The notes beneath the pieces are model-generated. The model searched no databases. It was not told the origin of the DNA and was given only the letters and a program-made list of their open reading frames with translations. DNA of 64,000 nt from Apilactobacillus waqarii (GTDB taxonomy: Bacteria; Bacillota; Bacilli; Lactobacillales; Lactobacillaceae): positions 1 to 64,000 of the forward strand of contig NZ_JAHQYH010000007.1 in assembly GCF_019061205.1 (NCBI RefSeq), written 5' to 3'. Below are positions 532 through 64,000 of the stretch, in pieces. Position 1 is the first letter of the stretch, and each line of letters begins with the position of its first letter. The position numbers and the translations under genes were made by a program.

Positions 532-549
532 TAAAACCCCTCCTCTAGT

Positions 550-1287: not shown

Positions 1288-1301
1288 GCAAATCCTCCTA
1301 T

Positions 1302-1323
1302 TGTGAAACATGATTGTTTCACA
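1302..1323. promoter_or_regulatory. Inverted repeat in the rsmG leader, parS-like half sites in reversed order
   Basis: Nine-base arms TGTGAAACA and TGTTTCACA flank a 4-base TGAT centre, just upstream of the rsmG ribosome binding site. The arms are the two halves of the consensus parS site (TGTTTCAC/GTGAAACA) in the opposite order. A related sequence, ACAATCATGAAACAT, lies at about 1358-1372. It could be a regulatory hairpin or a protein operator; an exact parS was not seen here. Confidence 0.45.
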
Positions 1324-6602: not shown

Positions 6603-6623
6603 CCTTTATTGGTTACTCTTTTT
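6591..6623. terminator. Bidirectional terminator shared by convergent genes
   Basis: A 13-bp perfect stem (6592-6604 with 6611-6623) and 6-base loop with A/T runs on both sides. The stop codon of the ComK-like gene is in one arm and the stop of the opposing membrane-protein gene is in the loop, so only three bases separate the two coding regions. Confidence 0.88.
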
Positions 6624-8408: not shown

Positions 8409-8473
8409 AACTATCCCTCCAGTAATCGGAAATGATTCATTTCCATATAAAACACCAAAAGGCCGCATTCGGC

Positions 8474-10243: not shown

Positions 10244-10255
10244 TAATTCTCCTCA

Positions 10256-11125: not shown

Positions 11126-11204
11126 CTTTTATCACTCCGTTTTAATCTTATACATTAATAATAATACATATTAGTATAATATTCACTGAAAATTAAAGAA
11201 AAGT

Positions 11205-11236
11205 AAAAAAGCCTCCCCTTTTGGGAAGCTTTTTTA
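11205..11236 (-). terminator. Terminator after the GW-like secreted protein gene
   Basis: The arms AAAAAAGCCTCCC and GGGAAGCTTTTTT pair with one mismatch and end in a T run on the minus strand, five bases past the stop codon of the gene at 11241. Confidence 0.75.
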
Positions 11237-11240
11237 TTTA

Positions 11241-12605: not shown

Positions 12606-12779
12606 TTTGATTCCTCCAATAATTTTATAATCTAGATTATAACACATTTTAACTTTTTAACTATTTCATTAACAAATTGTCGCGTTTTATTAAATAACTT
12701 TAAAATTAACATTATATTTTAGACATTTTATTCAAAAAATATTAAAGTAAAGTAAAAGGATTTATAGGGGGAATCGCCA

Positions 12780-19222: not shown

Positions 19223-19338
19223 GTCAAAAATCGCCCCTCTCAAATTTAATCACTGCTTCTATTTAAACCCTTTACAATCTGTTTTGCAATAAAATAATCG
19301 CTAAATAATATACTGATAATTTAAAAACATTTTTAACA

Positions 19339-24843: not shown

Positions 24844-24850
24844 ACCAAAT

Positions 24851-24886
24851 AAAAAAGCCCCTATCTATTCGATAGGAGCTTTTTTA
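24851..24886. terminator. Bidirectional terminator between gtf pair and first giant gene
   Basis: Arms AAAAAAGC/GCTTTTTT and CTATC/GATAG with a small internal loop and a TATTC loop; serves both convergent transcription units. Confidence 0.85.
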
Positions 24887-27800
24887 TTATTCTTTGTTAA
24901 CCCAGGTCTTGTTAGCGGTAATGTATCTACCGTGACCAATGTATAGTCTGGTGATTCCCTTGTAATGAACAACTCTTTCGACCTTTATTCTGCTGTTAGA
25001 ACTAATTTTTCCAACCGCGTGTTTCTTGTCAAAAATTGGGCTATTGTAAATTACTATTCCTCTGTGTCTTATTACACGGTAGTATTTGTCATCGTTTTGT
25101 TTATCAACGGCATAATAACCATCGGTGTAATCAGAACTATCCACGAAGTGTCCATGGATTTTCAATTGTAAACGACCGTCTACATATCTGTATCCAGAAA
25201 CCTTGTGAACTGAAGAATGTTTTCTATCTTCATTTAGATTGTAAACATACTTAGGAACATTATCGAAATCATTTCTTAGCGCAACGTACTTCTTATTTGA
25301 AGTGACGTATTCACCATTACCTAGATATAGTCTAGTGATTCCATTGTATTCAACTACCTTTTCAACCTTGAATTCAGAACCATAACGCATGAAACGCTTG
25401 CGTTCGTGTTTGCTAAATTCTGTACTACCGTAAACCCAAACACCTTTGTGGTCGGAAACGATGTAGTCATTTGAAGGTTCGTTAGTTGAGTAGTACTTAC
25501 TGTTGTTGGCCTTGATATCGTTCAATTGAGCATTTAGTTGATCAATTTGTTCTTTGTATTGATTAATCAACACTTCGTTACCTGCATTCTTATCGTTTAA
25601 TGACTTGGTTACTTCTGCCAATTGAGCCTGATATTGGGCATTCAATGAAGCAGCTTGGCTACTTAGTTTTGATTCTTCATTATTCATGGCAGCAATGGAC
25701 ATTGCTTCTTGTTGTGCCTTAATAATGTTAATTGCATTTTCATACTTGTTTGCAAGTGAATCTCTAATTACTTGAGCTTGTGAGTCAGCTTGACTGGCTG
25801 CTACACTTTGCGCACTGCTCATTGCTTCCTCGTTAGCTTTAGCTTGAGAGCTTAATTCTGCGTCTCTTTGTGCATTCAATGAAGCAACTGCACTCGAGTA
25901 TTCAGTACTCTTTTCTGCCATCATACTGTCCGCTTGTGAGTTAGCTTTCGCAATTGCTGATTGCTTGTCATTTTCCACTTGTGAACTAAATGATGCCATT
26001 TGACTAGCAAATGTTGAGTTAGCAGCATTTGATGAAGCATAGTATTGACTTTCTAATGAAGCCTTTTGGGCGTTCATGTCATTGTCAGCAATGCTCTTAG
26101 CAACACTAGCAGCACTTGATGCAGCACTGTCGATTGCTGATTGAGCCTTACTACGTTCATTTTCAACTAAGCTATCGTAGTTGCTCTTGATAGCTTGTTG
26201 AGCTGAAACATTTGATTGAGACAAACTATTTAGTTGAGCTTGTGCTGAACTGTTCATCGAATTTCTCACATCTTCAATTGCTTGGCTAGCAGCTGATGAT
26301 TGTGAAGAAGTTTGATCATTCAATGATTGAACTTGTTTTGCATATGAGTCAGCGTATGAGTCTGCGATTGACTTAGCAACGCTTGCAGCATGACTTGAAG
26401 CTGAGTTAATTGTTGAATCCATTACGGATTGAGCAACTGATGAAGCGGCTTCACTATCAGCCTTAGCCTTTGAGTTAGCACTTGATAGCGCTAGTGAGTT
26501 CGCAATTGAGGTTGCAGTTGATTGTGAACTAGCTAGGCTTTCGGCAGATGATTTAGCTGCTGAAACTGCTGAGCTACGGATTGAATCAGCATTGTTTGAA
26601 GCGTAAACGCTGTCGTTGTATGCCTTTTGTTGGGCATTAATCAATGCTTGTGAGTTAGCAGCATTCAATGAAGCAATGTTTGAGTTAGCAATGCTTTCAG
26701 CCAATGATCTAGCAGCTGAAATCGCATCTTGGGCACTGTTAGATGCTGCAACACTGTCAGCAATTGACTTAGCTTTAGCTTCACTTTCGGCTTGTGAGTT
26801 GGCAGCATTGATTGAATCAATGGTTGCTTGGGCTTGTGATGAAGTTAAACTCTTTGCAGCTGAAATTGCGTCAGCAATATCACTTTCCGCCTTCTTTTGA
26901 GCTGCAATACTATCAGCAGTTGATTGTTGTCTTGCTGAACTCAATTCATTTTCATATTTGTCTTGTAATGAAGCAATTTGTGATGCAGCGATACTTCTTT
27001 GAGCTTCTTGAGCAGAAGCAATTGCACTTTGTGCACTTTGTAGAGCTGCTAAACTATCTTGTTGTGCCTTCTGTTGAGCGTCTGAAATAGCGGCTTGGTT
27101 GGCACTGTTTAGTGAAGAAATTAACGAGTTAGCTGAATCTTGCGCAGATTGTTTTGCAGAATCAAGTGCTGAATTCTTAACTGAATCGGCACGGCTTGAT
27201 GCAGCTAAGCTATCATCAATTGCCTTTTGTTGAGCAGAACTCAATGCTAATGAGTTAGAAGCTGATTGGCTATTTAATGCTGCTTCAATTGATTGTTGAG
27301 CAGCAACACTAGCGGCACTAAGCTTAATGTTGTATAGATTATCGGCCATCAAACTATCTTGTTGTGCCTTTCTTTGAGCAGCATCTAACGCTTGTGAGTT
27401 TTCAGCAGAAATAGCAAGTGATTGTTGATTAGCGATACTTCTAGCAACTGATTGGGCTGATGATACTGCACTATTTTTTTCTACATCAGCAGCTTCACTA
27501 AAAGCAGATAAACTTGATTTATATTTATCAGCTTGTTCATTTAGCATCTTAGCATAAGAATCTTCAATTTCCTTAATTTGTGCGTCAGTTACTAATTTCG
27601 CAGCTGATTGAGCTGAAGCAATTGCCTGACTCATTAGTGAATCAGCGTAGTTAGATGCAGCAATACTATCAGATTTAGCCTTTGATTCAGCATCCGATAA
27701 TGATTGAGCATTTGCCGATGATTGATTAGCAAAAACCGAGTTAGCAGAATCTTGAACAGATTTTTGAGCAGATGCAATTGCTGAATCTAAGATGGATTTA

Positions 27801-30800: not shown

Positions 30801-33800
30801 GCTGAAGAGTTATCTGCACTTTGTTTAGCAAAAGTATCATTTGCTGAGCTAGTAATACTTGTAATCACATTATTTATTGCAGTTTGTGCTGCTTGTGAAG
30901 CAGCAATTGAATCTGCTTGGTATTGTGATTGTTGTAATGAACTGCTTTGAGCATATTGCGTTTGTAGTGATGAAATCGTACTAGTCAATACTCCCTGAGC
31001 AGATGCACTCATTGAGTTTGCAGCAGATGTCGCTGCACTATTAATAGCAGTATTTGCAGAATCACTTAACGTTTGAAGTGCTGTTTGATAGCTTGAATTC
31101 AAGCTGTTAGTCAAGCTTTGGTTTTGACTAGTTAGTTGTGTCATTACTCCAGCAGCAGATTGTTGTACACTGGCAACCGCGCTTGATCTTAATGAATCCG
31201 CAAGTGTTTGTGCTGCTTGTGAGTCTGATATCGACTTTTGTACTAGCTCGTTAATTTTTTGTTGAATTTGCGCATTAATTTCTTCTGTCTTTTGATGATT
31301 AACAGCATTCATCGAGTCAGTTGCTGATTGAACAGCACTACTTTTATCAATTTCAGCCTGACTAGATGCAGCTGCTAAACTGTTATTATATTGAGTTTGC
31401 AACTGTGCTAATTGTTTTTCATTTTGAGTGTTCAATGAATCTTGAACTGATTGAGCTGATGATTGCAATGAACTCAATGTTTGACTAATTGCATTTGCTT
31501 TATCATTAACAGCCGAACTACTCAAGCTTTGCAATGCACTATTAGCAGAAGCAATCAATGATTGAGCATAGCTTGAAGCTTGTTGAGAAGCTTGCGCAGC
31601 CTGTTGTGCAGCCTGTAATGATTGATTTTGAATTGTAGTTAGTGATCTTTGGTAGTTGGCACTAGCGATTGCAGAATTGAATGATGCAATACTGTTTGCG
31701 ATTGAATTTGCTTGACTGGATGCCGAACTAATTGCATCAGCGATTGATTGGTTAACCGCTGCTTTAGAGCTTTGAATGTATGATGCAGCTGATGAACTGT
31801 TTGCGGATGCTAATGAATCAGCAAATTCTGGTTTTGGAAGAACGTAAACATAAGCAGTTCCATTCCATAGTTGTGGCAAAACATGGCCAGTACTATTTTG
31901 GTTGTTTAGATAATAATTATTATCCAAAGATGTAATCGAAGTAATAGCTGGATTATTAGTATCACCGTTGAATACAGCTACTTGGCCTTGTCCACTTACA
32001 TGACTACCATTTGAAGTAATAAATTGGATTGGGTAATTGACAACATTTACGGTTGGAGCAACACTGATTTGATATTGACCATTATTATTGATAATTTGAC
32101 CTGTTGTCATGTAATAGTTATTACTATCAAAAGTTCCATTATCTACTAATCTTGGTGTGTTATTAGAATTTAAAACAATTGATCCTTTACCATGACTGCT
32201 GCCATTACTATCGATAAAATATACCGGTAAAGTTTTAGTAATTGAGTATGGGTTAACAACTACTTGGTATTGACCATTTACAGTCACTACGGAACCATTA
32301 ACAACATAGTAGTTATTAATATCTAAGTTACCATTATCAACTAACTTAGGATTATTATTACTATCGAACACAATTGTTCCAGTTCCGTGAGAGATGCCAT
32401 TTTTATCAACAAAGGTCGCATTAGCAGTCTTGACAAGATTATTGGGCAATACTTCCATGGTAAAGTTATCATCATTCGTGTCCTTAACTAATTGAGCATT
32501 TGGGCTGATGTGGTAATTACTGCTACCCAAATTACCATAGTCAACCAACTGAGCAATATTATTACCGTTGACATTTACTTGTCCAGTATATGGTTTACCA
32601 TTGCTATCTAGAAGTACGGAACCTCTATTAGTAAATGTTACAGTCGATGTTCTAGCGTTTTTCAAAACATTAATAGTGTAGACACCTGTCGCGCTAGACT
32701 GAGCTGATGAATTATATGAAAGATGATATCCTGTTGAATTTAAGTTAGTTGTATCACCCAACGTGGTCGTCCCATCAGCATTTAAATATACAGTACCAGT
32801 AATAGGATTATTATTGCTATCAGATAAAACTTGATTATTAGGAGTAACAAAGTTAAGTGTTGCAGTTTGCTTATTTACGATAACTGCATACTGACCACTT
32901 TTTTTGGCATCACTAGTAATACTTGGATTAGATGCATTAGGAACGTAATAGTATTTGGTAGGTAGGTTACCTGTGCTATAAGTGTTAGTTATACTTCCGT
33001 CATTATTAACGTTAACAGTTCCTGTTCCAACTACATTACCGCTGGCATCATAAAAGTTTAGTGGTTTGGGCTTTGCAGCGGGTACTAATGTCACAACATA
33101 ATTATAATTAGAATTCATTTTCAATTGTGATCCGACATTTGCAATATAGTTAGTACCATTCATGTTGTAAAAACTAGTTACCTTTTGTAAGGCATTATTA
33201 GAACTATTTAAAACTGCCATCCCAATTGCTGGGTTACCATCTGTTCCTGTAATCGGACTTCCATTCCCATCAACAAATGAAACTGGAGTAAGAAAAGTAG
33301 GATTAGTACCCTTTATTTCAACGGTAAGTTGAGGAGTTCCTAAATAGTTTAAAACCGGTGTTTGGTTGGCAGTTAGAACATAAGTGGTGCCGGGAGTAGT
33401 TATACTATTAGGATTATTTAATTGATTAACACCATTAGCACTTGGCGTTGCTGAATTTAGAATTTGGAAATTATTTTGATTAGTAGAATTACCAGCATAT
33501 CCATATGCCGCACCACCACCAAGTTGTTGCGTTCCGTTAGAGTCATTAAAATAAACAACTTGAGAATTCGAGTAGCTATCACGATAACTGAGGCCTTGAG
33601 CTATTGCAGCTCGATAATTGGCTGTATTACTATCAATATTACTTTGAGCAGACGAGGCCATTTGATCAATAATATTTTGAGCTTCAGATAGACTGGCTCC
33701 GCTTAATGAATTATTAAAGTTATTACTGCTGGTAACATCTGAACTTGATTGAATATTTACATTACTATTTTGTACAGACGCAGATGATGAAGTTGAAGAA

Positions 33801-34075: not shown

Positions 34076-34270
34076 GAAAAGGCACCTCCTCGTTAATCTA
34101 ACAAGTAATAGTAAAAATCGTTTTTTTATACAATGAATATAATATATCAATAATTATATTAAATCGTGTATTAACGATTAGTTTTATAAAATCTTAAACA
34201 AATAAATGATTCCTTAATATTTTTGCCAGAAATGTGCTCTGCAAAAAGCAATTTTTAAACAAATGTATAA
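34076..34270 (-). promoter_or_regulatory. Leader region of giant gene 1
   Basis: A 195-bp very AT-rich gap before the giant gene 1 start. A TTATTG box and TATAAA with 17-base spacing near 34130-34160 is a possible weak promoter. The sequence TTGTATAAAA occurs both here and in the leader of giant gene 2 (near 51308-51317). No hairpin or riboswitch was recognised. Confidence 0.35.
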
Positions 34271-34310
34271 AAAATAAACCCGTTAGGTTTTTCCTAACGG
34301 GTTTATTTTA
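34271..34310 (-). terminator. Terminator of giant gene 2
   Basis: A 16-bp perfect stem (AAATAAACCCGTTAGG against CCTAACGGGTTTATTT, TTTTT loop), overlapping the stop codon of giant gene 2 and placed upstream of giant gene 1. The genes therefore probably form separate transcripts. Confidence 0.88.
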
Positions 34311-37300
34311 CTTATTTGTCTTTACCCAAGTTTTATTGGATGTGATATATTCACCGTGTCCAATATAGAATCTGGTAATTCCATAGAATCTCGCTACGCT
34401 TTGTACTCGGATCAATGCGTTCTTTCTGAAATGCTTAACCGTATTTCGCTTAGTGAACTTCTTAGCGTTGTGAACTAAGATGCCCCTATTTCTGATGACA
34501 CGAATTAGCTTAGTACGACGAACGTAATATGCTGGAATTGTGCCCTTAGCATTGATGTAGCCGTGCTTGATGCGGTACTTAGTACCGTTCTTAGTCTTGA
34601 CTATTCTCAATACCTTGTATGCGTTAGCTTTATTTCTTGGTCTCTTGGTGAAGTACTTAACGGCATTCTTGCGAGTGAAGTGAGTATTTACGTAAACTCC
34701 ACGTTTGTTTGTCCAGTAAACGTAAAGTGGTGCTCTCTTCTTCTTAGCAAGCGCAACATAGGTCTTGTTAGAAGTTACATATTGGCCATTACCAATGTAT
34801 AGACGAGTAATGCTGTAATACTTAACAACCTTCTTAACGTGGATTAATGCACCATGACGAAGTCTAATTACACGTCTCTTGCCGTAATGGAACTTCTTGT
34901 CTGTGTGTACCAATACTCCAGTCTTTCTAATGACACGGAATAATGGATGGTTAGTACGGTAGTATGCATCCCTAATATTCTTGTTGAAGTAGATGTAACC
35001 ACCATTAACCTTTAGGCGTGGGTACTTGTTATGATCTAGAACAACGCCTCTAACCTTGAAGACATGTGCTAATCTTCTTGGTTTCTTAGCGTAACCCTTC
35101 ACACGATTCTTGATTGTGAAGTGAGTTGAACTGTGTAGGTATAGTCCCTTCACACTGTATACATATGAAGGAGCCTTTCTCTTCAATTCGGCCTTGTATG
35201 CTTTCATGTATCTAGATACATAGTCAGCATCCTTGTGCTTCAAGTTTTCAACAGGTAATAACTTAGCAGCACGGCTTCTACCTGCAGATTCAGGTGATTC
35301 ACCTGCACGAGTCTTAACTGCAACTACATGCATGGCTGTTGTACCATCACCATTAACAACTACCTTAATGATTGTATTTTCATTAGCAGTGTAATTATAA
35401 CCATCGCCATTATTAACAACTGACTTGTGTTGAACAATCAAGTTACCGTTGCCATCAAGCTTGGCGACCACTTTTCCAATTACATAGGTGTTATCACTGG
35501 CATCGAGGTGCGCATTGTCAATTGTAATTGTGCCGTCAGCGTTGATTGGGAATGACTCAACATGGTAGCTTCCATCTTGATTCTTGTTAACTGTTGCCCC
35601 AGCAGGTACCAAGTACTTATTATCACTTGAACGAGTTGGCTTAGTTACGATAATTGATCCATTACCGTCACCCTTAACTGGGATGTTACCAATTGATTGA
35701 GTATCTTGACCACCGTGGTTGAAATGAACATGGTTAATTTCATCATTAACAGGTGACAACACTGGATTGCTTGGTACTGTTTGACCTTCTGGAATAGTTG
35801 TTCCGGAATAACCTGGGATATTGGATTCAATTGTTTCGCTACCATCTCTATTGATATGAATAGTTGCGGCATCATCAATTGATTTAGCTTTTTCACCAGG
35901 TTGAGCAGGTTCTTGTTCATCTTGTTGAATTAAGGTTGCAGCAACATGGTATGAAACGTTGTTATTCTTATCAACTTCAATTGTAATTGGTTCACCAGCA
36001 TCAGCTTGGTAAGCATGGTGCGGAATAGTTGGATCAGTTACAACGGATGTCTTAGCAACTGTTAGGTCACCGGTATTTGGATCAACCTTAGCTGTTACAG
36101 GTCCAATTACTGACTTTGTCTTATCATTCTTGTCATCGAAGAATGCATTATCAATGTTTAGAGTCCCGTCGGCGTTGGCTGGAATCTTATTACCATTTAC
36201 TTGGTAAGCACCGGTATCCTTGTTCTTAGTTACTGTTGAACCAGCTGGAACCATGTAGTAGTTACCATCGTTACCCTTAATCAACTTGGTCTTGGTTGTG
36301 GCGATGTTCCCATCGTCATCAATCTTAGCAGACAAGTCAGTTTGAGCTTGTAGTTGACCATTTGCATCGACAACATTAGCGTTTTTAATATTAACATTAC
36401 CGTTCTCATCGATTGATAGTGAATCACCGTGGTAAGTACCATCATCATTCTTGGTTATGACGGTTCCGGCAGGAATTACATGCTTACCATCAGTTGACTT
36501 AGTAGTCTTGGTTACAACGACGTTACCATCATCATCACCCTTAACTGGTAAGTCGGCCTTAGCACCGGTATCCTTTCCATCACTATCAAAATGAACATCA
36601 GAAGCTGTTCCTTGAGTTGGTGTTAATACTGGCTTAGTGGTATCTTGACTAGCTGGTACGTTAGTTTGACCAGTAAAACCGGGAACGTTTGAGATAACAT
36701 CCTTAGTACCATCGCTATTGTAGTGAATAGTTGCGGCACCAGGTTGAACCTTACCGTTCTTACCTGGTTGTGCTGGAACCTTTTCGTCTTGGATGATTGG
36801 AGTTGCATCAATGTGGTATTCAACTCCACCCTTACCATCGGACTTAATAATAATTGGGTCACCGGCAGTGGCCTTGTAAACACGACCTGGGTCACTTGGA
36901 TCAGGTACTACAGTGTCTTTGCTTACGGTTAGCTTACCAGTGTTGTCATCGATGTTTGCCACAATACTGTTAATGACACCCTTACCTGGTTCTAGTTTGT
37001 CATCATAGTGAGCATTATCAATTGTTACTTGACCATCCTTGATTGGAAGTGGACTTCCGTTTACTTGGTATTGGCCTGTTGTTTCGTTCTTAGTTACAGG
37101 CGAACATGCTGGAATGATGTAGTCATAACCATCATCACCCTTAGCAACTTCATCCTTGGCAGTTGTGATGTTACCTTGATCATCAACTTTGGCAACTAAG
37201 TCCTTATGAGCCTTAGTATCACCCTTACTATCGTTAACGTTAGCGTTATTGATAGTTACGGTACCGTCTTCGTTGACTGGTAATGAATCACCGTGGTACT

Positions 37301-51254: not shown

Positions 51255-51515
51255 AGAAAGCCCTCCCCTGTTATTTATTGACTCTCTAAATCCTTAATTT
51301 AGTGTTTTATACAAACAGAACATCTAAATTAACCAATTTTAAAAAATGAAGTTAGTTGTTATATAGAAGCAAAAATAATTAAACTATTTTTAGCGTCTTA
51401 TCTCTATTAAATCAACATTTTAAAACCTCACAATTCAATTCTACTACTACTATAAGTTTTCGTTAATTTATAGGAACTATCCTTAAGAAAATCTTAATTT
51501 TTATGAACAATATGT
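51255..51515 (-). promoter_or_regulatory. Leader region of giant gene 2
   Basis: A 260-bp AT-rich gap before giant gene 2. TTGTATAAAA near 51308-51317 recalls the leader of giant gene 1, and AAGAAAATCTTAA at 51485-51497 is the reverse complement of the TTAAGATTTTCTT upstream of the glycosyltransferase pair. No clear -35/-10 pair, riboswitch or small gene seen. Confidence 0.35.
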
Positions 51516-51549
51516 ACAAAAAAGACCTAGCTTTTAGCTAGGTCTTTTT
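51516..51549 (-). terminator. Terminator of giant gene 3
   Basis: A 12-14-bp stem (AAAAAGACCTAGC/GCTAGGTCTTTTT) with T-rich loop and T run, five bases past the stop codon of giant gene 3. Confidence 0.87.
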
Positions 51550-51554
51550 CTCGA

Positions 51555-54500: not shown

Positions 54501-57500
54501 AGTGTCGTGATGAGCTGCATCCAAGTAATTAATTTCGGCAGCAGTGAAGCCACTTTGTGCTTGGTTGTAACCAACATTGAATGCATCCCTATCACTTGTC
54601 TTAGCTTCCTTAGCCAATTCAGCATCATGATCATCGTTGTTGAATGCCAATACACCGTTTAGAGCAGATTGCTTAGCTTCTGCCAACGCCTTATTGTAAG
54701 TCAAGGTTGCTAAATCATTTCCACTCTTAGCAGGTGCTAATGGGTTGTTGATAGCATCATTGAAACCAGCAACCGCGTTGGTGTAGACAACATCAAAGTT
54801 ACTATCTGTTGAATGAGCTGAGCTTTGAGTTCTATCGTTTTGAGCTAATTCGTAGGCAGATTGTGCATCGTTTACACCCTTATCGTATGCCTTCAACTTA
54901 CCAGCAGCAGTTGGTGCATTACCAGATGCATTTGGTGATACAAAATCATTTGCACCATTCAAAGCGTCTTGAGTGGCTTCGACTTGTGCCTTAGCGTAAG
55001 CACTAGTGTAAACATCACTTGTGTTTTGCTTTTCAGAAACAGCCACACTATCTGTTGAAGCGTTAGCTCCAGGAGTGCCATTGATGACATCTGTAAATGC
55101 GTTCATTGCACCACGGTATTGTTCATCGTTAACACTATCTGATGTGTGCTTACCATCGTTTTCTCCTGAGTCTTGGACGCTCTTGTAAACGTCACTAGCA
55201 TTGTTGTAACCAGTTACGTATGCATCCTTGTCAGACCCAAAACTGATTTGTTGAGCTTGAGTATCTCTATTCAAACCATTGTTGAAATCAAGTGTTGCTT
55301 GATGGATTTGTGCTTTGGCTTCCTTAACGGCACGAGTGTAAGCATTTTGATAAGTTGGTGTTTGATTATCGTTTTGATGCTTACCAACTTCACCATTGAT
55401 GGTATCGGTAAATCCAGCAGCAGCTCCGTTGTATGATACATCAGAGTTACTGTCTGAAGTGTGGTTAGCTTGATCATTTCTGTTTTGTTGAGCAAGCTTG
55501 TAACCATCGCCTGAATCTTTGTAACCACGGTCGTATACGTCAATCAAACCTTGGTAGCCACTCAATGAGTTGATACCAGTTTGTTCATCAATGTTGTTGA
55601 CAGCATCAGCAGCACCCTTGTTTTGGTATTGCAAGCCAAGAGCATATGCCTTGTCGTATGCAGTTGTGTATACAGAATCTGCACTAATTGAACGACTGGC
55701 CTTACCGTTATTTCCAGCAATATCGTTAAATGCTGCGGCAGCACCGTTGTATGATTTATCGATATTACTGTTTGAAGTATGGTTGAAGTTCTTACTTGGA
55801 TCTTGGATGGCTGCAACATATCCGGTGTAAGCATCGTTGTATCCAGAAGTTACAGCGTTGATTACAGCTTGATCAGTTGAACCATTCAAACCGTCAGTGA
55901 TTTGCTTACCAGTATTACCTAGAATTGCACCTTGAGTTGCATAAGCAGTTGCTTCATTTGCAGCCTTAGTGTAAGCGTTTTGGTATACAGGGTTTGTATC
56001 GTTAGCAAATTGACTATTGAATTGGTCACTTGCGACATCATTGAATCCAGCTGCAGCACCCTTGTATGCTTCATCGTAATCACTTGTAGTGTTGTGATCG
56101 ATAGTGTTGTTAGGGTTAGTTCTTGCAGCAGCGTAAGCAGCGTTAGCGTTTGTTACACCAGTGTTGAACATCTTTTGAGCCGCTTGGTTATTCTTGTAGA
56201 CTGCAAGTGCTTGGTTGACTGCGTCATTACCAAGTGGTGCAGTTTGAGCACCCTTACTTGCGATTGCCTTACCTTCGTTTAATGCACGAGCATAAGTTGA
56301 TGCGTAAACTGGGTTGCCATTTGTAGCATTCTTACCAGCTTGGTTGTTAGCAACATCGTTAAATGCTGCGGCAGCACCATTATATGCTTCATCGGCGTTG
56401 CTTTGACTTGTGTAATTACCTTGATCACTAGGGTTATTTTGTGCCTTAGCATAACTTACCTTAGCGTCATTGTATCCTGTGGTGTAAACAGTCTTTGCAG
56501 CTTGATTGTTACCAAATTGGGTACGACCAAGGGTTGCATCGACGCTCTTACCGAAGTCAATTGCACCGGTTTGAGCAAAGTTAGTAGCTTCTTCAAATGC
56601 CTTGTTGTATGCAGCGGTGTAAGCCTTGTTAGTATCTGAAGCCTTACCAGCATCGAATGTCTTATGACTTGCTACAGCTTTGTATGCGTCTGCAGTACCA
56701 CGGAATGTTTCATCAAAGTTGCTTTGACTATTATGAGTGGTATCTGCTGGGTTAGCAGTTGCAGCTGCATAAGCATTCTTAGCATCATTAAATCCAGTTG
56801 TGAATGCACTTTTGGCTGAATTGTTTGGTAGGTTCTTCAAGCTATCAGCTAATGATTGACCATTAGAGAATGTTTGAGCACCATCATTAGCATGAGCAAC
56901 AGCTTCAGCTAACGCTAAGTTATATGAATTTTGATATACAGAGCTACTGTCGGCATTCTTACCGGCATTGATGGTGTTGTTTACAACATCATTGAATGCG
57001 GCTGCGGCACCACGGTATGTGCTATCAAGGTTGCTGGTTGTACCATGCGCACTTGATTGAGTCTTATCGTTTTGAGCAGCTTTATAACCATTATCAGCAT
57101 CGTTGAATCCAGTTGTAAATGCATTCTTAGCTGCGGTGTTGGCCATGTTCTTAACACCGTCGCTTAGCGATACGTTAGTTAATCTAGCGTTTGCACCAGC
57201 AGTGGCGTTTTGTTGAGCTTCGGCCAATGCCTTGTCGTAGACAGCCTTGTAAACAGCACTATCGTTATCACGGTGAGCACCTGGAGTATCGTTTGTCACA
57301 TCGTTAAATGCGGCTGCGGCACCCTTATACGCATTGTCACTGTTGGTATCGTTAGTGTGTTGGTTAACTTGGCTTGGGTCATTTTGAGCAACTGTGTAAG
57401 CAGCTTGAGCATCACTATAACCCTTGTTGTACATCTTTGCATTAGTATCCTTAGCATTTGATTGGTTCTTGTTATTGGCAAATGCAACTGCACCCTTCTT

Positions 57501-60500
57501 AGATTGAGCAATTCCATGACTTAAAGCTCTATCATATAGTGCCTTGAATACGTCAGACTTATTGTTCTTAACACTGGAGTCAGATTCTTGACCGTTAATA
57601 ACATTGTTAAATGCGGCGACTGCCCCATTATAAGATTGATCATATGCATCAGAAGATGAAGCCTGTTCAGTAACACTATTTTGTGCTTCCTGGTATGCAT
57701 TTTGTGCGGATACATAGCCAGTAATAATTGCATTAATGTAAGCACCACTATTATTACCCTTATTAATTGCATCATTCATGCTTTCATATTTACCAAAAGA
57801 TACTGCACCAATATTAGCGTAATTATTAGCATCTTGAAGTGCCTTGTTATAAGCGGCAACAAAGATTGGATCATTATTGCCATTGGTTCCAGCCACAACA
57901 TTTCCAACGATAACTTCGTTAAATGCAAGTGAAGCACCATTGTATGCTAAATCAGCATTGCTTCCCGCAGCATAAGAATCAGGTTCTGTATTTGGATCTG
58001 AAACTGCGGCATTATATGCATTAGTTGCATCACTAACACCCTTGCTGTAAACATCATTATCAGTACTGGTATGTTGTTGAACTTCACTATTGTTCAAGTA
58101 AGCCAATGCACCATTCTTCGCAACATTTATAGCATATGCATAATAGTTTGAATATGCGGCATCATATACGCTTGAACTGTCATTAACTTTTTGAGGTTGA
58201 TTATTCAAAACATCGTTAAGTGCATCGGTAATACCATTATAGGTTTGGGTGTAGTTGTCAGTACCTGTACCGTGAGTTTGCTTATAGTTGTTGAAGGCAT
58301 TTTCTTTGGCTTTTGCAGCATCTACATATCCTTGGTGGAATGCAAGTGATTGAATATCTTTATTATTGGTATCTTTCTTACCCTTTAAGAATGCAATCGC
58401 ACCGAGTTGTGAAGCAGCTGTTCCTAGTTGTTGATCTAGGTCATAAACCGCATTATATACCAATGCTTGGGCCGCATTTGTTGGATTACTATTAGTTGTA
58501 ACATTCTTACTACCATCAGAGTAACCATTTACTGCAGCATCATAAGCAGCATCATAGGTATCTTTACTGTACTTAGCTTGGCTATTATCTTTAGCTTTAT
58601 TACTTTCAGCATCATTTTTACCATTGTTTTGATCTTCTGATATATGGTATCCAGCCATGTATGAAACGTTATTACTATTAGCTTCTGAACCATTTTGCTC
58701 ATCTGAATATCCAGATTGAGCTTGGTTGAATCCATAGTTTTCAGCGTTAGATACTTGGTCTGTATTGTTTAAACTAGCAGGCTGAGTTGCACCGGCAGCA
58801 AATTCAGAAACACCCTTAACCGCAGCGTTAACAGCAGCTTGTTGAGCCTTCTTGTATGCGGCCCAGTATACTGGTTTAGCTGAAGTGTCACTTGGGTAAT
58901 TGTTGTTACCTAAAGTACCATCAGCAAATCCAGCATTGGAACCGTTGTATGCATCGGTTGCATCATTAATAGCGGTGTATAAACTTGCGTTTTGATTATT
59001 GTTAGCATCGTTGTATGCCTTAGCTGCAATTTGTTGACCATATGCATATGCATTTTGGTCAGCTTGAGTCCAACTAGCTTGTGAGTTATTTTGACCATCT
59101 AGACTATCAATTGCTCCAGCTTGGGCTTTTGATCTTGCAGAATCATAAGCAGCATTGTAAGCGTCTTGATAAGCGCGAGATTGACTAGAACTTGTGTCAA
59201 ATACTTGCTTAGTTTGACGAGCAATTCCAGCGAAGTATCCGTCGCGAGTACCATTGAAACCATCTTGATCATTAGCACTTGGGTTAGTGTTTGGATCAGT
59301 AGTTGTTGCAGTTGAATTTGTTAATCCATTAAATGTAGCTATACCATTTCTGGATTCCTTAGCTGCAGCATAACCTAGTTGATATGCCTTAGTTTGACTA
59401 GTATCAGCACTTCCACTTGGATTGCCTAGGTATGCTTGGTATCCAGCTTGAGCGTCATTGTAACCCTTTTGTTGAGCAATGCCATCAGCACTAACTGCTG
59501 GAACTTGAGCATTAGCTTGAATGTAAACATTGGCACCACTGATTGCTGAGTTCAAGCCACTAGCCTTAGCCAAAGCGTAAGCGTAATCATATGCGTACTT
59601 TTGTGGATCTAATGATGAATCCATTGTGGTACTGCTGTTGTAACTACCGTCATGGTATCCATCACGGGTTGCTGCGTAGGCAGCCTTTTGAGCATCGGTA
59701 CCAACGTAATCTGTACGACTTGGGTTGTTAGAAGCATCGGAGATCCCTAGTTGAACATCCTTGGCCATACGAGTACCGGCCTTGTATGATGAATCCTTAC
59801 CAGTAGTGTCAACTAAAGCAGTTTCACCAATTTGAGCCTTAAAACCAGCCTTGATTTGATCATATGCATTAGTGTAGGCAACTGATTCTGCATCGTTTTT
59901 ACCTTGATCTGCATTGTAAGTTGTATCATTAACTGCTTGGAAGTCCTTAATTGCTTTAACTGTTTGAGCTCCAGCTTGACTTCTAGCGTTATTGTATGCA
60001 GCTTGATATGCAGCGGTTTGTGAAGTAACGTTAGCAACATTTCCTAGTTTTCCATCACTGAATCCGGCTTGAGCACCTTTAAAGATGTCTGAAGCATCAG
60101 ATTTATCGATGAATTTGTCCTTGTTGTTAACATCATCGTGTGCCCATGCATAAGCACTTTGAGCATTAGTTTGACCAGCACTGTATGCAGTTTGTTGTAG
60201 AGTGTTGTAACCACTTGAATTGCTCTTTCCAGCAAGTTGATCCAATGCACCTTGGTTGGCGATTGACTTAGCATCGTTGTATGCGTTGTTGTAAGCATCC
60301 TTGTAGGATTGACTTTGTTGACTCAAGTCAGCTGGTTGCTTGTCGTCTTGACCGTCAGTGTATCCAGAACGAGTTCCTTCGAATCCGGCAATATATGCAT
60401 CAATGTAATTCTTACTCTTACCAGACAAATCACTATCGCTCTTCTTGGAATTACCATTACGAGCATCTTCAGCACCGTCAGTGGCACCTGAGAGTGAATT

Positions 60501-63500
60501 GAAACCAATTAGATAAGCTGTATCAGTTGACGCATTGGTTGATTTGTTTTCTTGAGCTGCAGCAATACCACTCTTAGCTGCATCAGCACCATTTTGTTGT
60601 GCGTCAGTTTCAAGAGTTGAACCACTTGGCTTGTAATCATTGTTTGAAACGTAACTTTGAGCACCAGCGTTTCTTGCATCGTTAGCTTTCTTCAAAGCAT
60701 AGTTGTATGCAGTGACATAGTCTAATGACGCATTGCTCAAATCACGCTTAGTGTTTGCATTAGCATCACTGTATGCATCCTTAACAGCCTGGTAAGCATC
60801 ACTTGAATCATTAGTTGCATTCAAATCATGTTTATTAAATGCATCATTGTATCCATTAACAACCTTTTGACCGGCATCGTATGCTTGTCGACTCTTATCG
60901 TCTTGGTAAGTCAAACCATTAAATGGTTGGCTCTTTAATGCTTGAGTATATGCAGTCTTAGCATTGTTGTATCCATCAATGTCCGCTTGCGTATCACCAG
61001 TAGGTGCTGTCTTTCCGGTCATGAAGTCACTAAAGCCTTGAGCATAGTGATTCTTCATTAGAGTAATTGCAGAACTATATGCATCCTTATAAACTTGGTT
61101 GTTACTATTTGGATTATTTGAAGGAATAGTGTTATCAGCATCCGGATTATTGTGCAATGCTTGCTTAGCAGCAATTGCTGCTTCAAATGCAGTATTGTAC
61201 ATTGGGCCGGTTTGAGATTGTTGAATTTCACCATTAGCAACATTTTGAGCTGCTGTTAAAGCAGTCAATGCTTGGTTGAATCCAGTCTTCTTAGCACTAC
61301 TATCATCAGTACTTGGTTGAACATTTAGATTCAAAGTGCCATCTGAATTGGTAGCCGCTTTAATTGCTTCATTGTATCCAGCTTGTGCTTCATTAAATCC
61401 TTGTTGCAACAAGTTCTTAGCTTGAGTTGAGTTAATAGAAGTCTCATCGGCTGAAGTCTTACCATTTGAGTATTGAGATGCAAATTGGGTTGCACCGTTT
61501 TGATATTGATCTTGTAATGATTTAATAGCACTTCCATAGACATCTTGATAAGAAATACTCTTTCCAGAAGGTAAACCTGATGGACTATCTGGATTAGCAG
61601 AAACTGCACTGGCAGCATCGTTGTAAGCATTTTGTGCAGCCTTATATGCACTTGGATACTTAGAAGATGTTGAGTTGTTTGCTCCGTTAATTGCATCATT
61701 TAAGCCATCTTGTGCAGCCTTAGCCATGTCACGACCTAAAGTATAAGCAGCAGTTACATTGCCAGTAGATTGCTTGTTATGAGTAAAGTCATCGTGTCCG
61801 CGTTGCGCATCATCATAACCAATATTTTGAGCTAATGACTGAATGCCCTTATCAGTTGATCTAGCACTACCGCTTTCATAGTTAGTAGCTCCATGTTTTG
61901 CTTGCTCTCCACCGTTAGCCCATGCTAATTGATATACATAATTATAAGCGGCAGCTTGTAGTGGGTTAATTGGATTACTGTGTTGCTTATCTCCATTAGC
62001 ACCATCTTTGTATCCGTTCACAGAAGCATAGTACCCATTAACTGCAGCATTATATGCAGCAACTTCTGCTGGTGTCTTAGATCCATCCTTACCGTAGTCT
62101 TTGATAGATCCGTTATTATTAGCATCTGCCACACCTTGTTTTACATGGTCTGACATTTCCTTACCAGCTATATATGAAGCATCGTGGTTATTAGGATCAA
62201 TCTTTTGTGGATTTGCATTAGCATCATTGAAACCTTTTTGCATTTGATTGTAACCATTTGACTTAGCGACACTTAATGCATCTTTACCTGAGCTTGCTGA
62301 ATTAATGTTTCCGGATTCGAAATCTGATTGACCTTGTTTTGCAGCGGCGATTGCTTCTGCTTTAGCTTTATTGAAAGCATCCTTAAATACTTCTGACTTA
62401 CCATTCAAAATGCTGTCGTCATTGGAACCAATAGTTCCAGCACTAAATCCGGCCTTAGCACCATCAAATGCTTCAGCAGAATCTGAACCACTTGGATACT
62501 TATTAGTAGCATTGATATTAGACTTAATTGCATTGTATGCAGTTGTGGCGTTTTGTTGACCTGCAGCATAAGCAGCTCTTTGTGGAGCACTCCAGTTGCT
62601 TTGACTATTATCTTTACCAGTCATTGCATCGTCAGCACCTTGGTTAGCAATTTCCTTGGCCTTTTCGTAAGCCTTCTTGAATGCATCAATGTAAGCTGGT
62701 GACTTACCAGTCATATCTGGCATTGCTGCTCCAGTTGGCCCAGCTAAGTATCCTGCTTGGGCACCGTCAAACGCATCCCTTTGACCTTGGCTAGCGTTTG
62801 AATCTAATTGACCACCGTTTTCATATGCGTCATATCCATTCATACTGTTTGAGTATGAATTGTAACCATCCATGAATTCCTTATTAGCTTTTTGAGCATC
62901 TGTAAGGGGTGTTCCGCTAGCAGCGGCATCGTGTCCAGACTTGGCATCGTCGTAACCTTGGGCCTTTGAGTTTTCAATTTGGGTTGTCCCTGTTGGTCTG
63001 CTTTGACCTGATAGGTATTGTTGTGCCCCGATTGATCTTGAGTTTTGGGCTTCGTTGACTGCCTTGTCGTATGCTTGGATGTAGTCGAATGACTTACCGT
63101 TAGCCTTTAGTTGTGCATCACTTAGCACTGTGCCTCCTGCATTCATCACTGCACTAACACCGTCAGTAGCACCATTGTAACCATCAACTTGATGTGCATT
63201 TTGACTTCCCGCACTAGTTTGGTTATTCATGGCATTAGTGTATCCAGCGTATACAAGTTGTCCTTGGTTGAAACCAGCTTGGACACCACTTGTAGAGTTG
63301 GATGCCATTGTTGAACCTTGCATTGCTGTAGCGTATCCAGTCTTAGCATCGTTGTAACCTTGTGTTGCTTCACTAGATACATTAGATGAAGTAGCCTGAC
63401 CGCTTAGGTATTGTGAAATACCTGATTGGTAGTTAGCCTTCATTTGATCCACAGTTGCCTTATAGGCGTTAGTGTATGGAGCGGTTGAAGAGTTGCTATC

Positions 63501-64000
63501 ACTTGTAGCTACCATATCTGAAATATCTGGGTTAGCATCAAATGCTGTCTTAGCAGCATTTGCAGCAGTTAAAGCCTTTTGGTAAATTGCGTCAGTGTTT
63601 CCTGTATCACCGGTAGTGTTTCCGTTAGCTACTTGGTTAGCAGCCTTCAATACAAGTTGACCTTTGTTGAAACCAGATTGTTGAACTGGGTTATCTGATG
63701 AACTTGCACTACCGTTTAAGTTATTACCATTAATGGATTCGTTATAACCACTTAGCATGTCATTGAATCCTTGGTTAACCAATGTTTGTGCTTGAGTTGA
63801 TGTGATACCACTTAGGTTAGCTGAGTTATTTCCGTTTGCATATTGGCTGACAAATTGGTTTTGACCAGCAACATATTGACTTTGTAGGTAAGTCTTAGCT
63901 GCATTGTATGAATCATTATATGCAGTTGACTTGTTAGCAAATGTTTGTGCTGCAGTATCTTGTGGGTGAACGGTCACATAATTAAATGCATCAGTGTAAG
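51555..64000 (-). CDS. Giant surface protein 3: Ala/Tyr/Asn-rich tandem-repeat protein, N-terminus outside window
   Basis: At least 4147 codons; the frame stays open to base 64000 (reading YTDAFNYVTVHPQ at the edge), so the start, signal peptide and promoter lie beyond the window. A GTG at 63975-63977 opens a shorter frame but sits mid-repeat and is unlikely to be the start. Composition is Ala, Asn, Tyr, Gln, Asp and Ser rich, probably helical. The proximal part (nt about 58000-64000) has a super-repeat of about 795 residues; the distal part has sixteen units of about 105 residues. The last 195 residues are basic and related to the ends of giants 1 and 2 (VVKYYGLTRLYLGHNRYFTS). No LPXTG. A wall-associated fibre or coat protein is likely; enzymatic domains were not seen. 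Confidence 0.87.
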   Translation of the reverse strand, partial: YTDAFNYVTVHPQDTAAQTFANKSTAYNDSYNAAKTYLQSQYVAGQNQFVSQYANGNNSANLSGITSTQAQTLVNQGFNDMLSGYNESINGNNLNGSASSSDNPVQQSGFNKGQLVLKAANQVANGNTTGDTGNTDAIYQKALTAANAAKTAFDANPDISDMVATSDSNSSTAPYTNAYKATVDQMKANYQSGISQYLSGQATSSNVSSEATQGYNDAKTGYATAMQGSTMASNSTSGVQAGFNQGQLVYAGYTNAMNNQTSAGSQNAHQVDGYNGATDGVSAVMNAGGTVLSDAQLKANGKSFDYIQAYDKAVNEAQNSRSIGAQQYLSGQSRPTGTTQIENSKAQGYDDAKSGHDAAASGTPLTDAQKANKEFMDGYNSYSNSMNGYDAYENGGQLDSNASQGQRDAFDGAQAGYLAGPTGAAMPDMTGKSPAYIDAFKKAYEKAKEIANQGADDAMTGKDNSQSNWSAPQRAAYAAGQQNATTAYNAIKSNINATNKYPSGSDSAEAFDGAKAGFSAGTIGSNDDSILNGKSEVFKDAFNKAKAEAIAAAKQGQSDFESGNINSASSGKDALSVAKSNGYNQMQKGFNDANANPQKIDPNNHDASYIAGKEMSDHVKQGVADANNNGSIKDYGKDGSKTPAEVAAYNAAVNGYYASVNGYKDGANGDKQHSNPINPLQAAAYNYVYQLAWANGGEQAKHGATNYESGSARSTDKGIQSLAQNIGYDDAQRGHDDFTHNKQSTGNVTAAYTLGRDMAKAAQDGLNDAINGANNSTSSKYPSAYKAAQNAYNDAASAVSANPDSPSGLPSGKSISYQDVYGSAIKSLQDQYQNGATQFASQYSNGKTSADETSINSTQAKNLLQQGFNEAQAGYNEAIKAATNSDGTLNLNVQPSTDDSSAKKTGFNQALTALTAAQNVANGEIQQSQTGPMYNTAFEAAIAAKQALHNNPDADNTIPSNNPNSNNQVYKDAYSSAITLMKNHYAQGFSDFMTGKTAPTGDTQADIDGYNNAKTAYTQALKSQPFNGLTYQDDKSRQAYDAGQKVVNGYNDAFNKHDLNATNDSSDAYQAVKDAYSDANANTKRDLSNASLDYVTAYNYALKKANDARNAGAQSYVSNNDYKPSGSTLETDAQQNGADAAKSGIAAAQENKSTNASTDTAYLIGFNSLSGATDGAEDARNGNSKKSDSDLSGKSKNYIDAYIAGFEGTRSGYTDGQDDKQPADLSQQSQSYKDAYNNAYNDAKSIANQGALDQLAGKSNSSGYNTLQQTAYSAGQTNAQSAYAWAHDDVNNKDKFIDKSDASDIFKGAQAGFSDGKLGNVANVTSQTAAYQAAYNNARSQAGAQTVKAIKDFQAVNDTTYNADQGKNDAESVAYTNAYDQIKAGFKAQIGETALVDTTGKDSSYKAGTRMAKDVQLGISDASNNPSRTDYVGTDAQKAAYAATRDGYHDGSYNSSTTMDSSLDPQKYAYDYAYALAKASGLNSAISGANVYIQANAQVPAVSADGIAQQKGYNDAQAGYQAYLGNPSGSADTSQTKAYQLGYAAAKESRNGIATFNGLTNSTATTTDPNTNPSANDQDGFNGTRDGYFAGIARQTKQVFDTSSSQSRAYQDAYNAAYDSARSKAQAGAIDSLDGQNNSQASWTQADQNAYAYGQQIAAKAYNDANNNQNASLYTAINDATDAYNGSNAGFADGTLGNNNYPSDTSAKPVYWAAYKKAQQAAVNAAVKGVSEFAAGATQPASLNNTDQVSNAENYGFNQAQSGYSDEQNGSEANSNNVSYMAGYHISEDQNNGKNDAESNKAKDNSQAKYSKDTYDAAYDAAVNGYSDGSKNVTTNSNPTNAAQALVYNAVYDLDQQLGTAASQLGAIAFLKGKKDTNNKDIQSLAFHQGYVDAAKAKENAFNNYKQTHGTGTDNYTQTYNGITDALNDVLNNQPQKVNDSSSVYDAAYSNYYAYAINVAKNGALAYLNNSEVQQHTSTDNDVYSKGVSDATNAYNAAVSDPNTEPDSYAAGSNADLAYNGASLAFNEVIVGNVVAGTNGNNDPIFVAAYNKALQDANNYANIGAVSFGKYESMNDAINKGNNSGAYINAIITGYVSAQNAYQEAQNSVTEQASSSDAYDQSYNGAVAAFNNVINGQESDSSVKNNKSDVFKALYDRALSHGIAQSKKGAVAFANNKNQSNAKDTNAKMYNKGYSDAQAAYTVAQNDPSQVNQHTNDTNSDNAYKGAAAAFNDVTNDTPGAHRDNDSAVYKAVYDKALAEAQQNATAGANARLTNVSLSDGVKNMANTAAKNAFTTGFNDADNGYKAAQNDKTQSSAHGTTSNLDSTYRGAAAAFNDVVNNTINAGKNADSSSVYQNSYNLALAEAVAHANDGAQTFSNGQSLADSLKNLPNNSAKSAFTTGFNDAKNAYAAATANPADTTHNSQSNFDETFRGTADAYKAVASHKTFDAGKASDTNKAYTAAYNKAFEEATNFAQTGAIDFGKSVDATLGRTQFGNNQAAKTVYTTGYNDAKVSYAKAQNNPSDQGNYTSQSNADEAYNGAAAAFNDVANNQAGKNATNGNPVYASTYARALNEGKAIASKGAQTAPLGNDAVNQALAVYKNNQAAQKMFNTGVTNANAAYAAARTNPNNTIDHNTTSDYDEAYKGAAAGFNDVASDQFNSQFANDTNPVYQNAYTKAANEATAYATQGAILGNTGKQITDGLNGSTDQAVINAVTSGYNDAYTGYVAAIQDPSKNFNHTSNSNIDKSYNGAAAAFNDIAGNNGKASRSISADSVYTTAYDKAYALGLQYQNKGAADAVNNIDEQTGINSLSGYQGLIDVYDRGYKDSGDGYKLAQQNRNDQANHTSDSNSDVSYNGAAAGFTDTINGEVGKHQNDNQTPTYQNAYTRAVKEAKAQIHQATLDFNNGLNRDTQAQQISFGSDKDAYVTGYNNASDVYKSVQDSGENDGKHTSDSVNDEQYRGAMNAFTDVINGTPGANASTDSVAVSEKQNTSDVYTSAYAKAQVEATQDALNGANDFVSPNASGNAPTAAGKLKAYDKGVNDAQSAYELAQNDRTQSSAHSTDSNFDVVYTNAVAGFNDAINNPLAPAKSGNDLATLTYNKALAEAKQSALNGVLAFNNDDHDAELAKEAKTSDRDAFNVGYNQAQSGFTAAEINYLDAAHHDTNSYADQVYTNAAKAFKDVSDRTGQAKDNVANDVAGSAYNKAFNEAFNIANNGADDSVKGVSQSTNVAQYTGKKALADAYNAGYVDATKAYADAESDHSKANDHTSDSNYDRVYRGAALGFGDIINHQPGQNAKADSNKAFVDAYNRASQQAFAQAHDGAIDANGPKQVRQLNINADKQAYQVGLNDALNGYSEAQSNPDDKAKADQATNTGLAYAGAAAAFNDVADGKQGEHGQTIADLVYQNAYNKALAEGKANANAGATAFGLGHTLSDDTKQFASSVAKVKDYTKGYNDAQAAFAAAQSDASQVDQHRSGSDYDEVYSGAANAFNDVSDHTVGQHRNNSNNPAYVAAYDKALTSGQSNTQDGALTYLTDSQDYDHKMDSFATQAEKSSFATGFNDAKKGYELAQQNPMLQSHIDQNDLDDTYRGAASAFNDVKNGTAGQHAKSEDNPIYQKAYDKALTEAMNSFTDGANEFNDNKPNSASGVDANSLDHNKGYQDAKAQYENVLVNGDDNLPDNANPAQKIGYQKAKSVVAGIIDATSGNKQQSDDPNYVLGYNSAQAALRDGQAFAQANGKLGNVNDIPVPDGLDPDAYRQVFAGAYEGYKTGAGLQPKNPSQNNPAFVNAYNNGYNKAANDIPAQEDYLYNGKKKDFNSRTDKNSYEQAYKQTGDGFADGIKNIAMQNPDSGYYVNGYKAAEVARAAMKKAKTNAKLTNQELKALGGQTYVNAFNGYRQGVKAAQASARTHKKLTAKQLAAKGEVFAYTYNQGFKIETAHQIKIGKKYGSARAIKRSPIPMSITKNHSAAYAKAYIAEYKRQFKAHMPRYIYNVKTIFSHRRTKFSKGSRIIKYKYSRRYNAHVFKVIGIKYYKNRVPRYVVSGGRLVTAGQMVQDAYYRGDTAKTTKNSGSKKTKNKPMVFRVIKPTGALIHTSKKYSKHNVIRRVHQGQLIHVVKVVKYYGLTRLYLGHNRYFTSNKTFVKKVR
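53100..57950 (-). repeat. Sixteen tandem units of about 105 residues in giant protein 3
   Basis: Each unit has the motif Y-x-GAAAAFNDV followed by VY-x-x-AY-x-x-AL-x-EA, GA-x-x-F, GFNDA and HTSDSN-type spacer. Sixteen anchors run from about nt 57945 to 53225; the average spacing is about 315 bp. Two adjacent units counted by hand are each 104 residues. The DNA copies are diverged. Confidence 0.8.
58900..64000 (-). repeat. Super-repeat of about 795 residues in the proximal part of giant protein 3
   Basis: The block beginning YLQSQYVAGQNQF (about nt 63888) recurs as SLQDQYQNGATQF (about 61508), some 793 residues later. The block with ANQGADDAMTGKDNSQSNW (about 62690) recurs at about 60300 (ANQGALDQLAGKSNSSGYN) and, after a shorter gap of about 377 residues, at about 59170 (AQAGAIDSLDGQNNSQASW). 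Confidence 0.65.

Follow-up and report, generated by a model that had tools for sequence, protein, structure and literature searches.

Introduction

The closest described counterpart of the locus analyzed here is the giant-gene cluster of the Apilactobacillus kunkeei group, which was found in 2015 and in published genomes lies some 250 kb from the origin (Tamarit 2015; PMC4494060). Secretion and cell association of the giants have been demonstrated by others, and the cell-free supernatant of strain A0901 contains all five of them (Seeger 2023, PMC10496945). The names Giant1-5 and structural models followed in January 2026 (Pedersen 2026; PMC12863079). According to these models Giant1-4 have beta-solenoid N-termini, Giant1-3 contain alpha-helical rods, Giant4 consists of beta domains, Giant5 contains a 2,000-residue helix, and the C-termini are SH3b-like; the same paper puts forward the hypothesis that the giants are adhesins. 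It also reports that all published A. kunkeei genomes keep the giant genes, that recombination occurs within and across these genes, and that no transport genes lie near the cluster, and it mentions the flanking gene pair solely as 'glycosyl hydrolases' (PMC12863079).

Several other systems share features with the giants. The Ebh/EbhA-type matrix-binding proteins are likewise giant wall proteins made of helical repeats, and similarity to them has been reported (PMC4494060). Serine-rich repeat proteins, which leave the cell through an accessory Sec system, resemble the giants in having a long glycosylation-prone stalk, a related signal motif and a beta-solenoid tip (reported for Giant1-4). The staphylococcal Sdr proteins are encoded beside SdgA and SdgB, a tandem pair of GT-B O-GlcNAc-transferase-like enzymes next to a serine-rich surface protein (PMC3794999, PMC8561734), an arrangement like the one described below. 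Within the Lactobacillaceae, the DUF1975-type glycosyltransferase pair Gtf1/Gtf2 of Lactiplantibacillus plantarum is also comparable, and O-glycosylates proteins according to a review's account of Lee 2014 (PMC5796085).

We analyzed a 64-kb stretch of DNA (hereafter the window) from a lactic acid bacterium associated with honeybees, positions 1-64000 of a contig of 85,297 bases that is part of a 1.49-Mb draft genome in 38 contigs. Our additions to the published work are the periodicity of the Giant5 stalk, the structure of the Giant4 unit, a test for a single Sec route and a survey of the neighbouring glycosyltransferase pair.

Results

The window contains Giant5, Giant4 and half of Giant3

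Of the published A. kunkeei-group cluster, the three large genes of the window represent Giant5 and Giant4 in full and Giant3 in its second half (Table 1), so the locus itself is already known. The initial annotation described three consecutive giant genes of 3062, 5648 and more than 4147 codons filling about 60% of the window, and the list of open reading frames confirms this: the frames are intact, lie on one strand, span 24887-64000 and occupy 39.1 of the 64 kb. The giant5 frame is open from a TTG at 34150 (3087 codons); the in-frame ATG at 34075, codon 26 of this frame, is the likely start, 25 codons inside the upstream TTG. Beyond the window giant3 extends to position 76613 of the parent contig and has 8352 codons in all. 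It is preceded by giant1 (7537 codons) and by giant2, which is broken across two contigs with an exact 127-bp overlap and has 4808 codons when joined.

The genome therefore has the five consecutive same-strand genes that define the Giant1-5 cluster (7537, 4808, 8352, 5648 and 3062 codons), each with a signal peptide, a repeated middle and C-terminal DUF5776. Together they take up about 6% of a genome of roughly 1.5 Mb. Only short leaders and terminators separate the genes, as had been noticed from the sequence: the gaps, measured to the likely starts, are 209-300 bp, and a terminator-like hairpin with a T-run can be read 3' of each giant gene. Upstream of the cluster lie purB/pyrB, and downstream of it follow a pair of glycosyltransferase genes and rlmD-rsmG, as in the published genomes; the glycosyltransferases and the RNA methyltransferase were identified by Pfam, and purB, pyrB and rsmG from their translations alone. 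The secA gene is 98% identical to those of A. kunkeei DSM 12361 and LMbo, which places the window in the A. kunkeei group, the source from which the initial annotation gave such giant extracellular-protein genes as known; their placement near the origin agrees with the published distance of about 250 kb (PMC4494060). In gene order, sizes, signal peptides, repeats, DUF5776 ends and flanks the cluster matches the published Giant1-5 with no difference in kind, and the window represents a further genome of that group.

Table 1. Coordinates of the giant genes, their parts and their neighbours in the window
Feature	Position	Strand	Details
GT1, GT4 glycosyltransferase, SdgA/SdgB/GtfA-like	21692..23326	+	Pfam, NCBIfam; Glu-x7-Glu present
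GT2, GT4 glycosyltransferase	23329..24843	+	Convergent with giant5; Glu-x7-Glu present
Terminator-like hairpin between convergent giant5 and GT2	24844..24886	.	A and T runs on two sides; sequence reading
giant5	24887..34075	-	3062 codons; signal peptide, 7 beta modules, predicted Ser/Ala coiled-coil stalk, two DUF5776
Giant5 C-terminal DUF5776 x2 (SH3b-like)	24899..25495	-	DUF5776 match; AlphaFold2 pLDDT 87.6
Giant5 stalk, ~2000 residues	25811..31828	-	Within 2117 residues lacking proline; hydrophobic period 3.705
Giant5 beads, seven homologous ~70-residue modules	31835..33289	-	Residues 288-772 of the 3087-codon frame; module HMM
Terminator-like hairpin after giant4	34270..34307	-	Sequence reading
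giant4	34308..51254	-	5648 codons; signal peptide, beta modules, C-terminal DUF5776 domains
Giant4 C-terminal DUF5776	34323..35174	-	Two above cut-off, one slightly below
Giant4 288-residue beta unit	35742..36605	-	Three related ~72-residue sub-modules and a fourth
Terminator-like hairpin after giant3	51515..51554	-	Sequence reading
giant3	51555..64000 (window frame 51555-63998)	-	Last 4147 of 8352 codons; open at window edge
Giant3 C-terminal DUF5776	51570..52034	-	One above cut-off, one below

The giants share a signal-peptide type and SH3b-like C-termini

The five giants have KxxKKxW-type signal peptides that are 49-82% identical over 39 residues, so the initial description of the two visible ones as nearly matching holds for the most similar pairs. 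In Giant4 and Giant5 the signal peptide scores slightly below the cut-off of the KxYKxGKxW model. The C-terminal modules of the three window proteins had been called homologous, and indeed all three carry DUF5776, with 15 invariant positions in the alignment of the five giants. An AlphaFold2 model of the Giant5 C-terminus, built from 24 sequences (pLDDT 87.6), matched SH3b domains with Foldseek E-values from about 2e-3 and VIA Z-scores mostly of about 7-9, the matches mostly covering one domain of roughly 60-70 residues. Among the matched structures were phage endolysin wall-binding domains, the SH3b domain of lysostaphin, the domain of Lactobacillus SlpA that binds teichoic acid, and InlB; the highest VIA score (Z 12) went to the C-terminal domain of a capsule-synthesis enzyme. 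The DUF5776 ends are thus predicted to fold like SH3b cell-wall binders, which supports the proposed attachment of the giants to the wall.

The middles of the giants differ in kind

The middles of the window proteins differ in kind, as was first noted from the sequence: Giant5 has a Ser/Ala stalk, Giant4 has modules of Gly/Asp/Thr/Val type, and the repeats of Giant3 are of Ala/Asn/Tyr type. The beta unit of Giant4 listed in Table 1 is repeated upstream at 36615-37469 and partly further on. By HH-align its three related sub-modules match between neighbours with probabilities of 98% and 93%, and the fourth is unrelated. Modelled from 35 aligned repeats and orthologues, the unit is all-beta (pLDDT 94.3, pTM 0.82). 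Queried as a whole, the unit gave no Foldseek match at E <1e-3 and a best VIA Z of 3.4. It is predicted confidently while lacking a solved match at the level of the whole unit, which does not amount to proof of a new fold. The beta modules of Giant4 and Giant5 look alike by eye, and we considered whether they are homologous, but BLAST and HMM comparison were unconvincing (HH-align probability 8%) and the idea was dropped. DUF1542 repeats were not detected in Giant3-5, unlike in the Ebh/EbhA-type proteins, and are present in a separate sixth giant of the same genome.

The Giant5 stalk has the periodicity of a right-handed coiled coil

The seven beads of Giant5 match their module HMM with E-values of 1e-21 to 1e-27, the HMM having been built from the same seven copies. 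The stalk that follows consists of 22% Ser and 22% Ala. A windowed periodogram of its hydrophobic residues, counting Ile, Leu, Val, Met, Phe and Ala, peaked at 3.705 residues with a power of 11.05, whereas 500 shuffles averaged 1.0 and never exceeded 1.93. The hydrophobic autocorrelation has peaks at lags of 4, 11, 15, 22, 26, 33, 44, 48 and 52, that is, in steps of 11 and 15 residues. There was no power at the heptad period of 3.5 in the stalk periodogram, and a heptad coiled coil was rejected on this ground. Hydrophobic periods above 3.63, that of a straight helix, go with right-handed supercoils (PMC4786415), and the stalk has both such a period and the 11/15 spacing; a right-handed oligomeric coiled coil is therefore expected. 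The phase of Ser and Asp differs by about 170 degrees from that of the Ile/Leu/Val/Met stripe, so that these residues point away from the core. In the middle of the stalk, around residues 1530-2100, the period is nearer 3.60.

The same peak (3.705-3.710) was found in eight related genes, the orthologues at loci L017-L021, L041 and L055 and the related gene of locus L048, and the cores of Giant1-3 have no comparable peak. Two other Ser/Ala-rich frames peak elsewhere (L053 at 3.415, L047 at 3.625), so the 3.705 pattern belongs to the Giant5 lineage and does not follow from composition alone. Together these observations predict that the Giant5 stalk is a right-handed coiled coil with its serines outward; the pattern is observed, and the oligomer is what it suggests. 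In the 2026 study neither coiled-coil predictors nor multimer modelling consistently favoured a Giant5 oligomer (PMC12863079); in the case of the predictors, the non-heptad pattern may be the reason.

A glycosyltransferase pair adjoins giant5

The best named relatives of GT1 and GT2 are SdgA, SdgB and GtfA, with best scores of 246 bits (cut-off 800) and 174 bits (cut-off 574.6), and the closest solved structure to both is SdgB. By these scores the two enzymes are relatives, not members, of the named subfamilies. Both window proteins, and all five aligned GT1 sequences, are of GT-B/GT4 type with Glu-x7-Glu; the first Glu is lost in one GT2 of another species. A GT1 match is present in 15 of 16 Apilactobacillus genomes and a tandem pair in 14, and in 13 of these 14 the pair adjoins a giant gene. 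Across the family, 121 of 251 Lactobacillaceae genomes match GT1 at E <1e-60, and a large surface-type gene was close by in about 3 of 20 pair neighbourhoods from other genera.

We had considered the pair to be dedicated to the giants. Because it is widespread in Lactobacillaceae, in many of them with no giant gene beside it, such dedication is unproven, and the pair was downgraded to a candidate. The description that fits it best is a family-wide pair for general protein O-glycosylation that in Apilactobacillus adjoins giants, and it is a plausible candidate for modifying Giant5. In contrast to the Sdr system with its Ser-Asp repeats, the candidate acceptor is a predicted Ala/Ser coiled coil, and there is no sortase motif. 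The adjoining giant gene sets the Apilactobacillus pair apart from Gtf1/Gtf2 of L. plantarum, and protein modification is putative here.

Two observations from other genomes concern the surroundings of the pair. In a closed Apilactobacillus genome (G003) two pairs lie far apart on the chromosome, each beside a Ser/Ala-rich giant (L048:2297-11957; L047:4250-11561), and the one closest to that of the window lies outside the giant cluster of that genome. In a distant Apilactobacillus a frame of more than 4005 codons with 19% Ser and 19% Ala (L053:7984-19998, + strand) stands beside a glycosyltransferase pair.

Discussion

The initial observation was correct, and its interpretation is partly supported. 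The presence of all five proteins in the supernatant of strain A0901 (PMC10496945) bears on the absence from the cell surface that the initial annotation had named as a counter-finding. One concern with frames of this size is that they arise from errors of assembly or frame, and the draft is in 38 contigs with giant2 interrupted at a contig end. We surveyed the genus by a DUF5776 search over 16 Apilactobacillus genomes. In eight species-level genomes, including that of the window, order and lengths of the giants are fixed (Giant3 8265-8366 codons, Giant4 5646-5846 codons). Since frames of the same length occur in seven other, independently assembled genomes, and since the two giant2 contigs are joined by an exact overlap, an artefact has practically no probability and was ruled out; the frames are neither broken nor collapsed, a defect for which the initial annotation had allowed. 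The same constancy bears on whether end cassettes have recently recombined between neighbouring genes, exchanging the cores. This would fit the ends being shared among giants, and recombination, both inside single giant genes and between them, has been published (PMC12863079). However, gene order and lengths are invariant in the eight genomes, and the C-termini group by gene across close species and not by genome: the last 80 residues of Giant1-5 in the window genome are 37-64% identical to each other, whereas in close species each of them is matched best by its own orthologue, with 71-100% identity (this one-to-one orthology fades in more distant Apilactobacillus species). With ends so much closer to orthologues than to neighbours, the exchangeable fibre cores that had been suggested are unsupported; recent shuffling is very unlikely, and exchange of ends from neighbour to neighbour was rejected. 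By these identities the ends are an old shared inheritance that diverged along with the genes, not a swapped part.

More improbable still is that the giants are serine-rich repeat proteins that depend on an accessory Sec system for export, for all that their signal is related to KxYKxGKxW, GtfA-like glycosyltransferases adjoin the cluster and Giant5 is serine-rich. A search of the draft genome found one SecA and one SecY, and no second SecA or SecY (SecA2, SecY2). The SecA passes the canonical SecA equivalog models; its score on the secA2 model is 917 against a cut-off of 930, and it scores higher on the canonical ones. LPxTG is absent from the C-termini of all three window proteins, the AST motif was not found in giants (PMC12863079), and the GtfA model was matched far under its cut-off. 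We conclude from the single SecA and single SecY that the giants leave by the general Sec translocase, which, barring a set missed by the draft, rules out membership in the accessory-Sec family; the giants would use SH3b-like wall binding in place of SecA2/SecY2 export and an LPxTG end. The shared export and anchoring system of the initial annotation thus stands as regards a common signal-peptide type and C-termini with a wall-binder fold, and falls as regards a dedicated export system.

The best explanation overall, to which we give a probability of about 0.7, is that the giants are Sec-exported, SH3b-anchored fibres for adhesion and aggregation. Guided by their KxxKKxW-type signal peptides, they would exit through the sole Sec translocase found in the genome and be held non-covalently on the wall by their basic SH3b-like DUF5776 C-termini, with the N-terminal end presumably pointing outward from the cell. 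The middles are then three different solutions for a long spacer: Giant1-3 have an alpha-helical rod (PMC12863079), Giant4 has beta units in series, and Giant5 has beta beads on a predicted coiled-coil stalk. This stalk is probably oligomeric and right-handed, reaching up to about 300 nm with serines outside, for whose O-glycosylation the neighbouring pair is a candidate. The outer tips, beta-solenoids in Giant1-4 (PMC12863079), probably bind sugars or surfaces, and the coat would for this reason most likely serve adhesion and aggregation, in the bee crop and in food stores. The chief competitor is a structural coat, a protective or water-holding S-layer-like fringe for concentrated sugar in which binding to host or surface is secondary. 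Five rods differing in kind on one anchor type would suit such a coat, as would the retention of the giant genes in all published A. kunkeei genomes (PMC12863079) and the teichoic-acid-binding domains of Lactobacillus S-layer proteins among the anchor's structural relatives. Yet the N-terminal beta-solenoids of Giant1-4 resemble ligand-binding adhesins (PMC12863079) and would be needless in a pure coat, and we consider a mainly structural role unlikely, though far from negligible.

Adhesive fibres remain our preferred reading, and within it we tentatively raise a bolder possibility for Giant5, one with a real but minority chance of being right: that it represents a bacterial surface fibre of a new kind, in which chains with ~2,000 stalk residues each associate into a right-handed coiled coil, the adjacent enzyme pair O-glycosylates the serines on its outer face, and export runs through ordinary Sec. 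The giants' job had been called undescribed, which holds only in part: models and an adhesin hypothesis are published (PMC12863079). A reduced genome of 1.5 Mb spends about 6% of itself on these five putative adhesins. Although the locus is published, three refinements open parts of it to testing: with a single Sec route the idea of an accessory Sec falls away, the stalk periodicity yields a concrete and cheap prediction for Giant5, and the adjacent glycosyltransferase pair is a testable candidate modification system.

Other genes of the window and genome

At 1-1311 (- strand) the window carries genes for a ParA/Soj-type ATPase and rsmG, recognized from their translations; in Firmicutes these are often found near the replication origin. 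Four successive genes at 6606-12647 (- strand), none with an NCBIfam match, encode two putative multi-span membrane proteins of 620 and 589 aa with similar N-termini and two small, apparently secreted proteins; those at 6606-8468 and 11241-12647 have no Pfam match either. Another apparently secreted protein, of 596 aa, is encoded at 17453-19243 (- strand) and has weak coiled-coil-type similarity and no Pfam match.

The sixth giant (L014:5432-14773, - strand) is located on contig C35 of the same genome, far from the Giant1-5 cluster, between sugar-kinase/phosphoglucose isomerase genes on one side and a transporter on the other. It has 3113 codons, the same signal-peptide type, two DUF5776 and 26 DUF1542 (Ebh-type) repeats, and similar frames of 2352-3375 codons are present in four other genomes of the genus.
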